In this document: one piece after another, positions 1 to 64,000 of the stretch
Numbering within the stretch: position 1 is the stretch's first letter
Layout of the letters: each line of letters starts with the position of its first letter
NCBI RefSeq assembly: GCF_025244665.1
Contig: NZ_CP104205.1
Location: 1,919,001-1,983,000 of the forward strand
Length of the DNA stretch: 64,000 nucleotides
DNA from: Maribacter litopenaei
Lineage (GTDB): Bacteria; Bacteroidota; Bacteroidia; Flavobacteriales; Flavobacteriaceae
Reading direction: 5' to 3'
Position numbers and translations under genes: made by a program
The notes under the pieces: model-generated
What the model was told of the DNA's origin: nothing
What the model saw: the letters and a program-made list of their open reading frames with translations, nothing else
The model's database searches: none

Positions 1-636
1 ACCATAATCATTTCTCTCGTTGTTGTTGTAGTTGGGATCAATTTGTTTATTGAACTTACGGATACCCTTAAAACCGACACGCTTGCCAAATATGACACGG
101 ATATTACCAATTTTATAATTTCATACAGGAACCCTGCCCTTACGAAGTATTTTATTTTTGTAACTGATGTTGGGGACGTTCGTGGCTACCTCATTGTTTT
201 GGGGCTATTTGTCATCCTCTCTTGGCGTATACTCAAATCTTGGAAATATGTCTTACAATCCGCTGTGGTACTTGCTTTAGCCACTCTTTCCAATATGGCA
301 CTAAAGAGATTCATTGATCGGGCGAGGCCAGGTATAGAACATCTAGTTTCCGTTGAAACATTGAGTTATCCTAGTGGACATGCCATGAGCGCCATGGCAT
401 TCTTTGGTTTTTTGATTTATCTAATATCAAAATTGAGAATCAACAAAGTCTTAAAATATACACTGATGGTTCTATTTGCCTTTTTGATTTTGAGCATAGG
501 TATCAGTAGGATATATCTAGGGGTTCATTTCCCGTCGGACATAGCGGGCGGGTTCATAGCCGGATTTATATGGGTAGTTTTTTGTGTGCTGATTTTTGAC
601 GTGATTCAGATATTCAGAAGAGACCCAAAAGTTTAA
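1..636 (+). CDS. PAP2-family membrane phosphatase (5' end outside window)
   Basis: Integral membrane phosphatase of the PAP2 / type 2 phosphatidic acid phosphatase superfamily, likely acting on lipid phosphates or undecaprenyl pyrophosphate at the inner membrane. All three catalytic motifs are visible: KRFIDRARP, PSGH and SRIYLGVHFPSD with its His and Asp. Several hydrophobic helices surround them. The frame stays open to base 1 and encodes one more hydrophobic stretch upstream of the first usable start (TTG at 43), so the real start probably lies before the window. The exact substrate cannot be told from sequence. Confidence 0.88.
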   Translation, partial: TIIISLVVVVVGINLFIELTDTLKTDTLAKYDTDITNFIISYRNPALTKYFIFVTDVGDVRGYLIVLGLFVILSWRILKSWKYVLQSAVVLALATLSNMALKRFIDRARPGIEHLVSVETLSYPSGHAMSAMAFFGFLIYLISKLRINKVLKYTLMVLFAFLILSIGISRIYLGVHFPSDIAGGFIAGFIWVVFCVLIFDVIQIFRRDPKV

Positions 637-687
637 TTGCAGTAGGTATTAATTTTAAACCGATTTCCCTTTAAAGCTTTAAGTTAG

Positions 688-1825
688 ATGTTGGATACGC
701 TTAAATCGTTCAGAAAGGAATTGCACCAATTTCGGGAATTATCCGGATTAGAGACCCGAGACGGCCAAAAGGATAAAAGCATTTATCAAGGAAAACAGTG
801 AACCGACAAGCATTTTAGATGATCTAGGAGGAAATGGGCTTGCGGTGGTTTATGAATTTCCATCTGACGGTCCCACTATAGCATTTAGATGTGAATTGGA
901 TGCTCTACCAATAAACGAGGAGAATCAATTTGAACATCGGTCCAAAAATCACGGGGTTTCCCATAAATGTGGACACGACGGTCATATGACCATTGTAGCC
1001 GGATTGGCACCGTGGATACAGGAACAAAACTTTAAAAAAGGAAAGATTGTTCTGCTTTTTCAACCCGCCGAGGAAACTGGGCAAGGTGCTGCCAAAATTT
1101 TGGCGGATAAAAGGTTCAGGTCATTGAATATTGACCATATCTATGCTCTACACAATATTCCAGGTGTTCCATTGCAAACCATAATAGCTCCAACCATGGG
1201 TTTTTCAGCTGAAGTACAAAGCTTTGCCTTGTATCTCACCGGAAAAGAATCCCATGCCTCCGAGCCAGAAAATGGAATAAATCCGGCCATGCCGATTGGG
1301 GATGCCATTAGATATTTTGAAGCATTAAATGTTCAGCAACCCAATGACCCAAACTTTAAAATTCTGACCCCGATTTATGCTAAAATAGGTGATACATCCT
1401 ATGGTATATCGCCGGCCAAAGGGGAACTTCATTATACGATACGGACTTGGACCCCTGAAACCATGGAGTCCTTAAGGAAAGAAATAGAAAGCATTTGTTC
1501 CCAAATAAGTAAAACTTATTCTATCAATTATTCATTGGATTGGTTTGAATATTTTCCTGCAAGTATAAATGACTCCTCCGGTATTATGCTGGTGAAGAAG
1601 ATTGCGTTAAAAAAGCAATATAAACTTCTTGAAAAAACTACTCCATTTTCATTTGGAGAGGATTTTGGATGGTTTTCCAAGGCATTTAAAGCCACCATGT
1701 TTGGTATTGGTGCCGGAGTCGATTCACCTTCATTACATCATGCGGACTATGATTTTCCTGATGATTTAATTTCTACGGGAATGGAAATGTTTACGTCTTT
1801 AATTCTTGAATTACTTGCTGAGTAG
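688..1825 (+). CDS. M20-family amidohydrolase (one frameshift)
   Basis: Zinc-dependent amidohydrolase of the M20 / IAA-amino-acid hydrolase type, expected to cleave N-acyl amino acids in the cytoplasm. Metal ligands appear in CGHDGH, in the acidic pair of PAEETGQG and in LHNIPG; a late His lies in SLHHADYDF. The ATG at 688 encodes the typical N-terminus (KELHQFRELSGLE), but the frame is lost at 756-761, where CCGAGA replaces an expected CCAGA. Removing the G at 758 gives a continuous protein of 378 residues, normal for the family. Substrate is not predictable. Confidence 0.85.
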
Positions 1826-1838
1826 GCCTTGAAATATA

Positions 1839-3083
1839 TTAGTTTCCCTTGTTCTTCTCCTCAATCCATTTAGCCATATACTTGGTACTTTGTAATGTAT
1901 GATGCGCTAGAATGCCTCCCATAATATTTTTCAATCTGTGATGTTCCAAATTGTCCACTTTTTCGGTTATCCTGTTCATCAGTCTTTTTTCTAGTGAAGA
2001 TTTGCTATAGAGAGTATTGATGATTTTTATTCCATTGCCCTGGGCTTCTTCCCAAACTGTTTTATCTGTATACAGTTCAATTGATTTTTGTACAAAATCC
2101 TCTTGAGATTCGGAAACAAAACCGTTCCAGTCCATATTGGCGTGCATACCTTCCGCCCCAATACCTGTCGTGACACTTGGTGTACCGTTCAACATGGCGT
2201 CTACCAATTTTCCTTTAATACCTGCCCCAAAACGTAGCGGTGCCAAACAAACCCTTGACATTTTCATCACCTCAGATACACTATTGGTCTTCCCCTTAAT
2301 GTAGAAACCCTTTTTAGGGTTGTGGAGTTTAATGACAGTATTGGGTAGATATGCGCCATAGATGTGACATTGAACATCGGAAATTTGCGAATGAATTTTT
2401 GGCCAAATCTCCTGTTCCAAATATTTAATGGCGTCCACGTTGGGTGAATGCAACCCGCCTCCAATAAATAGAAAATCCCTTCTGTCATTAAATTCGGGCC
2501 AATCGTTTTGTTGGAAAATTTCATTGTGCATAAAGGGAAGATGCAACAATAGAGAGGCATCAAACTTGACAATTTTTTCTAAAAGTTCCATTTCAAAACT
2601 GGAGATGACCAAGGTGAGGTCGCATCGCAAAATACTCGCCAATTCCCTCTTGGTCTTACCATCCGCCAGCCATCGCGCTACCGTGAATGGAATATTCTTT
2701 TTAAAACATGTTTCCCTAACGTACCGCAACGAATGTAGATCCTCGGAATCCAATATGCGTAACGCCTTTGGGCAAACTTCTGCCACACGCCACCCATATT
2801 GCTCTTCGGTCAGAAATCTATCGAATAGCACAATTTCAGGTTTCAAGATTTTCAAAAATTCATCAAACGACGCATTGTTAAGTTCTATTTCTTCGGTTGT
2901 AATACCTAATGCCTGTAAATCTTCGGAACCCCCGGTTCTCTTAGAAGCGGATACAAATGTAATTTCTAAATCTCGGCTTGAGAAAACCTGCAACAATTGC
3001 ATCATGCGAACTCCCGCTGCCGTGGCGGTAGGCTCCGGCCAGGTAAGTCCAATAACCAAAAGCTTTTTGGATTCCATTTCCAT
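1839..3083 (-). CDS. GT-B fold glycosyltransferase
   Basis: Cytoplasmic glycosyltransferase of about 414 residues resembling GT4/GT1 enzymes. The N-terminal half starts with a Rossmann strand (KLLVIGLTWPEP). The C-terminal donor-binding half shows FLFIGGGLHSPN, APLRFGAGIKGK and the Gly-rich TTGIGAEGM, as expected for a nucleotide-sugar binding fold. There is no signal peptide or membrane helix. It is convergent with the amidohydrolase upstream and follows the alpha/beta hydrolase gene on the same strand with about 19 bp between them. Sugar specificity is unknown. The frame is intact although a genuine CCGAGA on the coding strand occurs near 2970. Confidence 0.8.
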   Translation of the reverse strand: MEMESKKLLVIGLTWPEPTATAAGVRMMQLLQVFSSRDLEITFVSASKRTGGSEDLQALGITTEEIELNNASFDEFLKILKPEIVLFDRFLTEEQYGWRVAEVCPKALRILDSEDLHSLRYVRETCFKKNIPFTVARWLADGKTKRELASILRCDLTLVISSFEMELLEKIVKFDASLLLHLPFMHNEIFQQNDWPEFNDRRDFLFIGGGLHSPNVDAIKYLEQEIWPKIHSQISDVQCHIYGAYLPNTVIKLHNPKKGFYIKGKTNSVSEVMKMSRVCLAPLRFGAGIKGKLVDAMLNGTPSVTTGIGAEGMHANMDWNGFVSESQEDFVQKSIELYTDKTVWEEAQGNGIKIINTLYSKSSLEKRLMNRITEKVDNLEHHRLKNIMGGILAHHTLQSTKYMAKWIEEKNKGN

Positions 3084-3101
3084 GCAATATACAGGAAGTA
3101 T

Positions 3102-63492: not shown

Positions 63493-63658
63493 AAAATTGA
63501 AACAAAATTGTTAAGGCAACAAAAAAGAAATGTTTAGTAAATGCTCGATTATAGAATGGAGATTGAAATACATTTCAAACGTTGATATAGTGACGCAGAG
63601 GCAATCAAGGGTTGCAGTTTTAATTAACTTTAAAACAACATGTCTGTAAACTATTTCT

Positions 63659-63699
63659 AAAAAGCCATATCAAAGTATTAGTACGTTGATATGGCTTTT
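63659..63699 (+). terminator. 14 bp perfect hairpin, terminator-like
   Basis: AAAAGCCATATCAA / TTGATATGGCTTTT with a 12-base loop. No coding gene ends nearby (rplS has its own terminator 450 bp upstream), which suggests a non-coding transcript ends here or that it insulates icd. Confidence 0.7.
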
Positions 63700-63771
63700 G
63701 TTATTTCACAAAACTTCCCATAAGCCTTAAATATTAAGGCTAGACCTCACAATTTAGGCTGGATAAAATTG

Positions 63772-63779
63772 TATATTTG
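63772..63779 (+). promoter_or_regulatory. -7 element of the icd promoter
   Basis: TATATTTG matches TAnnTTTG exactly, 26 bp before the icd ATG. No clear TTTG was found 19-23 bp upstream. Confidence 0.5.
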
Positions 63780-63805
63780 CACCGCTTGAATTTAAATAAA
63801 TACGA

Positions 63806-64000
63806 ATGTCCAAAATTTTTTATACCAAAACCGATGAAGCACCTGCATTGGCCACAGCTTCATTTTTACCCATCATTAAAGCATTTACCAAAACTTCGGG
63901 AGTTGAGATAGAGACAAAGGATATTTCCTTGGCCGGTAGAATAGCCGCCTTATTTCCGGAATATTTGACAAAAGAACAACAAGTTCCCAATGATTTGGAC
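63806..64000 (+). CDS. icd: monomeric-type NADP isocitrate dehydrogenase (3' end outside window)
   Basis: The first 65 residues are present: [20 protein letters not shown], then [20 protein letters not shown] and [14 protein letters not shown]. This N-terminus is typical of the large monomeric NADP-dependent isocitrate dehydrogenase, a TCA-cycle enzyme. The frame runs out of the window without a stop. Confidence 0.85.

Follow-up and report, generated by a model that had tools for sequence, protein, structure and literature searches.

Frameshifts in a Maribacter genome record fall mostly on a CCAGA motif: probable consensus errors at a modified site

Introduction

The 64,000-nucleotide (nt) stretch analyzed here (the window) comprises positions 1919001-1983000 of the single 3,864,532-base contig of a record from Maribacter, a marine genus of Flavobacteriaceae; among named records, those nearest to the window are Maribacter species. 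Frameshifts interrupt half of the window genes that could be compared with relatives, and most of them lie on altered forms of one short motif, CCAGA (complement TCTGG). The question raised is whether such breaks, which affect dnaA and ligA among others, exist in the cell or in the record. They are held here, with a probability of roughly 0.93, to be consensus errors of the assembly at a modified motif, as opposed to mutations that the cell carries. A technical cause, of a kind already known, is almost certain; the flaw is probably in the record, with the genes themselves intact.

In the proposed mechanism, native CCAGA would carry a base modification, a base-caller untrained on that modification would misread the third position, and polishing would retain the error. 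The misread motif would have three outcomes: replacement of the A by G (CCGGA), insertion of a G (CCGAGA) or deletion of the A (CCGA). The reads were presumably obtained by nanopore sequencing of native DNA.

Sequence analysis

The assembled sequence was the evidence base, and a nanopore platform is suggested by the single contig and the type of error. Open reading frames (ORFs) of relatives were codon-aligned to the window with one-base shifts allowed, using a model that was blind to the motif; the method is also blind to substitutions. Codon alignment was chosen because nucleotide comparison failed: divergence from the relatives was too high for single CCAGA sites to be traced. Four relatives were used to check the positions listed in an earlier note on this DNA, and M. 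flavus and a second relative (G007) were used for the motif statistics. Words were counted in a 464-kilobase (kb) sample consisting of the window and 400 kb spaced evenly over the rest of the contig, with a G+C content of 39.5%.

Frameshifts and their motif

With M. flavus as the reference, 50 frameshifts (26 insertions and 24 deletions) were called in 29 of the 58 window genes compared; ca. 4 of these 29 genes rest solely on calls at gene ends (32889, 53766, 61517 and 61990). CCGAGA was located within 6 nt of 17 of the 26 insertions (expected, 0.14; binomial probability, 5e-33), and CCGA within 6 nt of 20 of the 24 deletions (expected, 1.55; 1e-20). An unbiased ranking of words at the breaks placed CCGAGA first among 6-mers at insertions and CCGA first among 4-mers at deletions. 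When G007 was the reference, 16 of 28 genes were broken, with CCGAGA at 12 of 17 insertions and CCGA at 11 of 14 deletions. The same procedure, applied between relatives as a control, yielded 0/28, 0/29, 0/13, 1/19, 0/19, 2/19 and 2/20 shifted genes. Twenty-three intact CCAGA/TCTGG sites are still present in the window.

The earlier note had listed ca. 45 disruptions and had assigned them to this motif. A frameshift was called within 20 nt of 45 of its 49 coordinates, and insertion or deletion agreed in all 43 cases in which a type had been given and a call was made. The strings CCGAGA/TCTCGG occur exactly at all 18 insertion starts that it gave; CCGA/TCGG was found at 16 of 18 deletion starts, the string lying ca. 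10 bases upstream at the other two (9538 and 49977). The four coordinates not recovered were two claimed substitutions (45441 and 51313) and two breaks that the note itself had set apart as non-fitting (13827 and 56363). Eleven further positions were called, several of them double calls or gene ends. The three sites that it had named as unaltered CCAGA do exist, at 10217, 53469 and 55668, i.e. 3-5 positions from where they had been placed. Its attribution of two breaks to CCAGT is doubtful, as CCAGT is not depleted overall (723 versus 682 and 703, scaled, in two relatives).

The genes called broken include the following.

51891..53312, plus strand: dnaA, two breaks (the relative's protein matches TIGR00362 DnaA, 4e-154)
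44662..46582, minus strand: ligA, NAD-dependent DNA ligase, four breaks (NF005932, 9e-250)
8740..9599, plus strand: rpoD-like sigma factor, three breaks (other rpoD-like copies in the genome)
25800..26825, minus strand: corA, one break (TIGR00383, 1e-90)
26871..27608, minus strand: tRNA pseudouridine synthase, truA-like, one break (PF01416)
48126..49186, plus strand: ribD-like gene, one break (PF01872, PF00383)

The argument that a disrupted rpoD would be implausible in a living cell is weakened by the other rpoD-like copies in the genome (70-71% identical DNA). The gene named rplS in the earlier note had no NCBIfam match at 1e-40. TrmD was rejected as a broken gene; its sole call (61990) is at the gene start and has no motif.

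Extent of the signature

Outside the window, 38 of the 76 comparable genes in the 400-kb replicate were broken, compared with 1/20 and 1/19 in control pairs. CCGAGA was found at 20 of 30 insertions and CCGA at 16 of 33 deletions, so that the concentration of errors on one short motif was seen in both the window and the replicate. CCAGA itself occurred 160 times in the 464 kb, versus 741 and 770 (scaled) in two relatives. It ranked first of 512 5-mers in depletion, and CCGAGA was the most enriched 6-mer. Relative to a Markov expectation, CCAGA stood at 0.38 here, at 1.12 and 1.15 in those relatives and at 1.11 in 74 pooled loci from other genomes.

Whole-genome counts gave CCGAGA a 2.3-fold excess over its reversed control (1760 to 759), making this record the lone outlier among 36 Maribacter; the 35 others lay at about 0.33-1.10. 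The ratio of CCCAGA to its control was 0.10 (129 to 1270), the lone outlier among 299 Flavobacteriaceae; the lowest ratio in the other 298 was 0.45, as judged by eye. CCCAGA was also low against its control in G058, another genome of the family (343 to 767). The signature was genome-wide, specific to the strain and absent from its relatives.

Error classes

Against the mean of two relatives, the 464-kb sample lacked 596 CCAGA and had an excess of 133 CCGAGA and 242 CCGGA (159 CCGGA over the nearer relative). By these word counts the A-to-G change is the largest class; the earlier note had recognized substitutions, as two entries. At conserved glutamine codons in the context C-CNG-A, the window had CGG (Arg) five times and CAG once. 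CCGGA led the 5-mers at the 209 conserved positions with radical replacements (11 versus 3.4 expected; p = 8e-4), an enrichment that was not significant once all 5-mers were corrected for. The replacements in this context included Leu to Pro four times and Arg to Gly three times, as A to G in CCAGA predicts. Conserved tryptophan codons provided one TC-TGG context in the whole window, too few to be informative. As the CCGAGA, CCGA and CCGGA classes together indicate, the errors center on the third base: A is changed to G, G is inserted before it, or it is lost.

Retention of CCAGA varied with its flanks. It was 0.40, 0.23, 0.10 and 0.07 with A, T, G and C, respectively, as the 5' base, and 0.45, 0.21, 0.12 and 0.07 with T, G, A and C as the 3' base. 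Such dependence is natural for a signal read across several bases.

Two further classes may exist. CTAGA/TCTAG was in excess in the 464 kb (408 versus 336 and 263), which could arise if CCAGA is also misread with C to T; Pro to Leu in that context was absent from the 209 radical replacements, and the two CTAGA cases were other changes. A minor class of insertions reading CCGTGA was present at 10964 and 11724 in the window and three times in the replicate (loci L106 and L110). At these sites the relatives have CCTGA, CCAGA, CCGGA or none of these, and the class may derive from CCTGA or CCAGA.

Artefact or biology

If CCAGA were avoided under restriction, its depletion should be greatest at sites that can change without altering the protein. 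Compared with relatives, CCAGA counts were 0.29, 0.15 and 0.26 in the three sense phases, 0.22, 0.14 and 0.16 in the antisense phases and 0.28 outside ORFs. The loss is similar in every phase, unlike the pattern expected of selection acting via the protein. Real avoidance, with the frameshifts as unrelated decay, could appeal to the strong under-representation of CCAGA and to the restriction systems on the contig; it is very improbable given that depletion differs little between the six phases or between ORFs and the rest of the sequence, that the frameshifts lie on altered forms of the motif, that CCGAGA is in excess, and that CCAGA is not depleted in two genomes that carry close homologues of a methyltransferase in the window (described below).

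A mutagenic process aimed at CCAGA in vivo, programmed or runaway, would share the motif specificity, which consensus errors explain equally well. It would require that the cell stay viable although roughly half of the genes compared, among them dnaA and ligA, carry shifts, and that a single base be altered in three different ways; its probability is negligible. The proposal in the earlier note that systematic errors at CCAGA/TCTGG, and not null mutations, underlie the breaks is upheld by the phase-independent loss, the breaks in dnaA and ligA and the isolation of this genome among its relatives. A low completeness (81.7%, with 4.0% contamination) in a single contig also counts for consensus errors.

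The second most depleted 5-mer in the sample, GGACC/GGTCC (0.47), behaved differently from CCAGA: its depletion was weakest in phase 0 (0.80 and 0.71) and stood at 0.46-0.60 elsewhere. It may reflect real avoidance of GGWCC or a C-to-T change. Real avoidance is plausible because of this phase pattern and an EcoO109I-family nuclease beside a C5 methyltransferase on the contig. GATCC was in excess in the sampled genome.

Candidate modification and enzyme

By analogy with Neisseria meningitidis, we lean towards 5-methylcytosine (m5C) as the modification at CCAGA. A profile search of the contig with PF00145 identified three C5 methyltransferases, of which one is in the window and two are at loci L171 and L170.

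33124..34629, plus strand: C5 cytosine DNA methyltransferase, intact, with an N-terminal helix-turn-helix (PF00145 3e-88 over residues 126-490; HTH_3/HTH_19)
34622..35719, plus strand: HNH_2 nuclease overlapping it, the presumed restriction partner (PF13391 2e-10; PADLOC HNH, REase_II; PDB 6yex 'HNH endonuclease' 3e-16)
L171:5918-7162: C5 methyltransferase, intact (PF00145; plasmid homologues 46-49% identical)
L170:4909-6331: C5 methyltransferase, split in the record (PF00145), adjoining an EcoO109I-family nuclease

The window pair is the best candidate by elimination because the other two enzymes appear to be of the GATC and GGNCC types; the chance that it is responsible is put a little below even. 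The stretch with the window methyltransferase had no counterpart in the alignment to M. flavus. In CCNGG, the inner C is the base methylated by M.SsoII and similar C5 enzymes that bear a helix-turn-helix at the N terminus.

The L171 enzyme is followed by an ORF of 202 residues (L171:5918-7780 for both; G000:C1:3681918-3683780), which had no match in Pfam, NCBIfam, PADLOC or the plasmids and is a possible nuclease. In the four neighborhoods of the methyltransferase's homologues that were viewed, a Sau3AI/MutH-type nuclease was present in two and a BglII/BstYI-type nuclease in one, which suggests a GATC specificity. At L170 (L170:4148-6331; G000:C1:3174148-3176331), the nuclease and the methyltransferase are both split in the record, and the nuclease family suggests GGNCC. 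That one of these two enzymes makes m5C at CCAGA is improbable. All three carry PF00145, and the specificity of each is a deduction; the nuclease neighbors at L171 and L170 point, by neighborhood alone, to other targets.

The same artefact could arise if the A of CCAGA were N6-methyladenine (m6A), the product of an enzyme encoded on an unassembled plasmid or belonging to a family beyond those searched. All three error classes fall on the A, and TCTGG has no A, so methylation of one strand, as is the rule for Type III systems, would fit. PF01555 and PF02086 had no match on the contig. PF02384/PF07669 matched two HsdM-type genes, a PrmC-like gene in the window and, below the cut-off, a TrmN6-like gene; the HsdM and TrmN6 names are our own reading of these matches. 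HsdM-type enzymes recognize sites split into two blocks. As candidate causes the adenine/N4 methyltransferases were rejected, for in the families searched, which left aside the MmeI, MT-A70 and EcoRI-methylase types, none was found that would be expected to act on a five-base block. The modification reported for CCAGA elsewhere is, moreover, m5C (PMC7973814, PMC7046676). We regard m6A as unlikely, if less so than m5C from either of the other C5 enzymes.

Returning to m5C from the window pair, the map of errors may tentatively be read as a methylome that records a CCAGA system encoded at 33124-35719.

Evidence against the preferred reading

Several observations weigh against consensus errors at a CCAGA site methylated by the window enzyme. 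Neither CCGAGA nor CCGA lies within 9 nt of 12 of the 50 window events called with M. flavus, more than the four or so non-fitting breaks that the earlier note had allowed; among the 12 are two TCACGG, one CCAGGA, one beside TCTGG and the four gene-end calls. CCGA was likewise missing from 17 of the 33 deletions in the 400-kb replicate. The codon-phase test used ORFs partly cut by the errors themselves and is blurred a little. The glutamine comparison has a thin control, as three control targets yielded one C-CAG-A context and no CGG. About 79% of CCAGA sites are wrong (596 of ca. 756 expected in 464 kb); were only one strand modified, reads of the other should be right. The errors are placed at the A of the motif, and an A-to-G change is as compatible with m6A there as with m5C at the neighboring C. 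Platform and modification are both inferred from the assembly. Finally, homologues of the window enzyme (87-89% identical; E-value cut-off 1e-60) were found in 2 of 396 other genomes of the family, and CCAGA is not depleted in either (1.12 and 1.23). If those genomes derive from short reads, as their 40-50 contigs suggest, they fit an artefact; they lend no support to the specificity.

Consequences

By extrapolation from 596 missing per 464 kb, errors may affect ca. 5,000 CCAGA sites in the 3.86-Mb record; such a load would account for the recorded completeness of 81.7% in one contig. No reliance can be placed on pseudogene counts, claims of absent genes or protein models that come from such a record. 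The A-to-G class would introduce Gln to Arg, Leu to Pro and Arg to Gly changes that are invisible to frameshift checks.

A report on two nanopore-only Maribacter genomes describes 173 pseudogenes in one, mostly frameshifted; those of M. halichondriae Hal144 are discussed as possible niche adaptation to a sponge host, and its authors allow that long-read indel errors may underlie another of their results (PMC10942906). Motif-bound errors are worth considering for the Hal144 pseudogenes too. Screening assemblies for depleted words could be an inexpensive way to list motifs with modifications unfamiliar to base-callers. If the reading is true, the CCAGA m5C system would be a Bacteroidota case found from assembly errors alone.

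Comparison with known systems

The earlier note had taken the implied methylation specificity to be unknown. CCAGA is, however, already listed as the site at which the N. meningitidis enzyme NEIS0771 makes m5C, confirmed with MspJI (PMC7973814, PMC7046676), and in the literature searched this specificity was reported only for Neisseria. The two cases have in common the motif and a cytosine-5 methyltransferase; they differ in that methylation was verified in Neisseria and is predicted from sequence in Maribacter.

The candidate enzyme also has plasmid relatives. C5 enzymes on plasmids of Acinetobacter schindleri, A. towneri and Vitreoscilla stercoraria are 55-56% identical to its residues 126-493, and one of these genes adjoins a Vsr gene. 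Plasmid LlaJI-family systems differ in their partners, an AAA ATPase and a LlaJI-family nuclease, as opposed to HNH_2 in the window.

A limited search of PubMed Central, mostly at the level of titles, turned up nothing that describes CCAGA as a motif of nanopore errors. The nearest precedent is in Listeria monocytogenes, in which five R9.4 assemblies are reported to contain 1533-5670 mismatches centered on GCAGC or GCTGG/CCAGC that survive polishing and are largely removed by amplification (PMC10687267). As described there, the likeness extends to a short asymmetric motif, thousands of errors after polishing and restriction to a lineage, and the Listeria CCAGC is one letter from CCAGA. The Listeria errors are mostly mismatches with few indels and were proven by amplification, whereas those in Maribacter include a large share of indels and were recognized in an assembly. 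Mismatches in nanopore assemblies of N. meningitidis have also been tied mostly to m5C (PMC12506013). The Maribacter case is the same known kind of artefact, on another motif and with a strong indel component.

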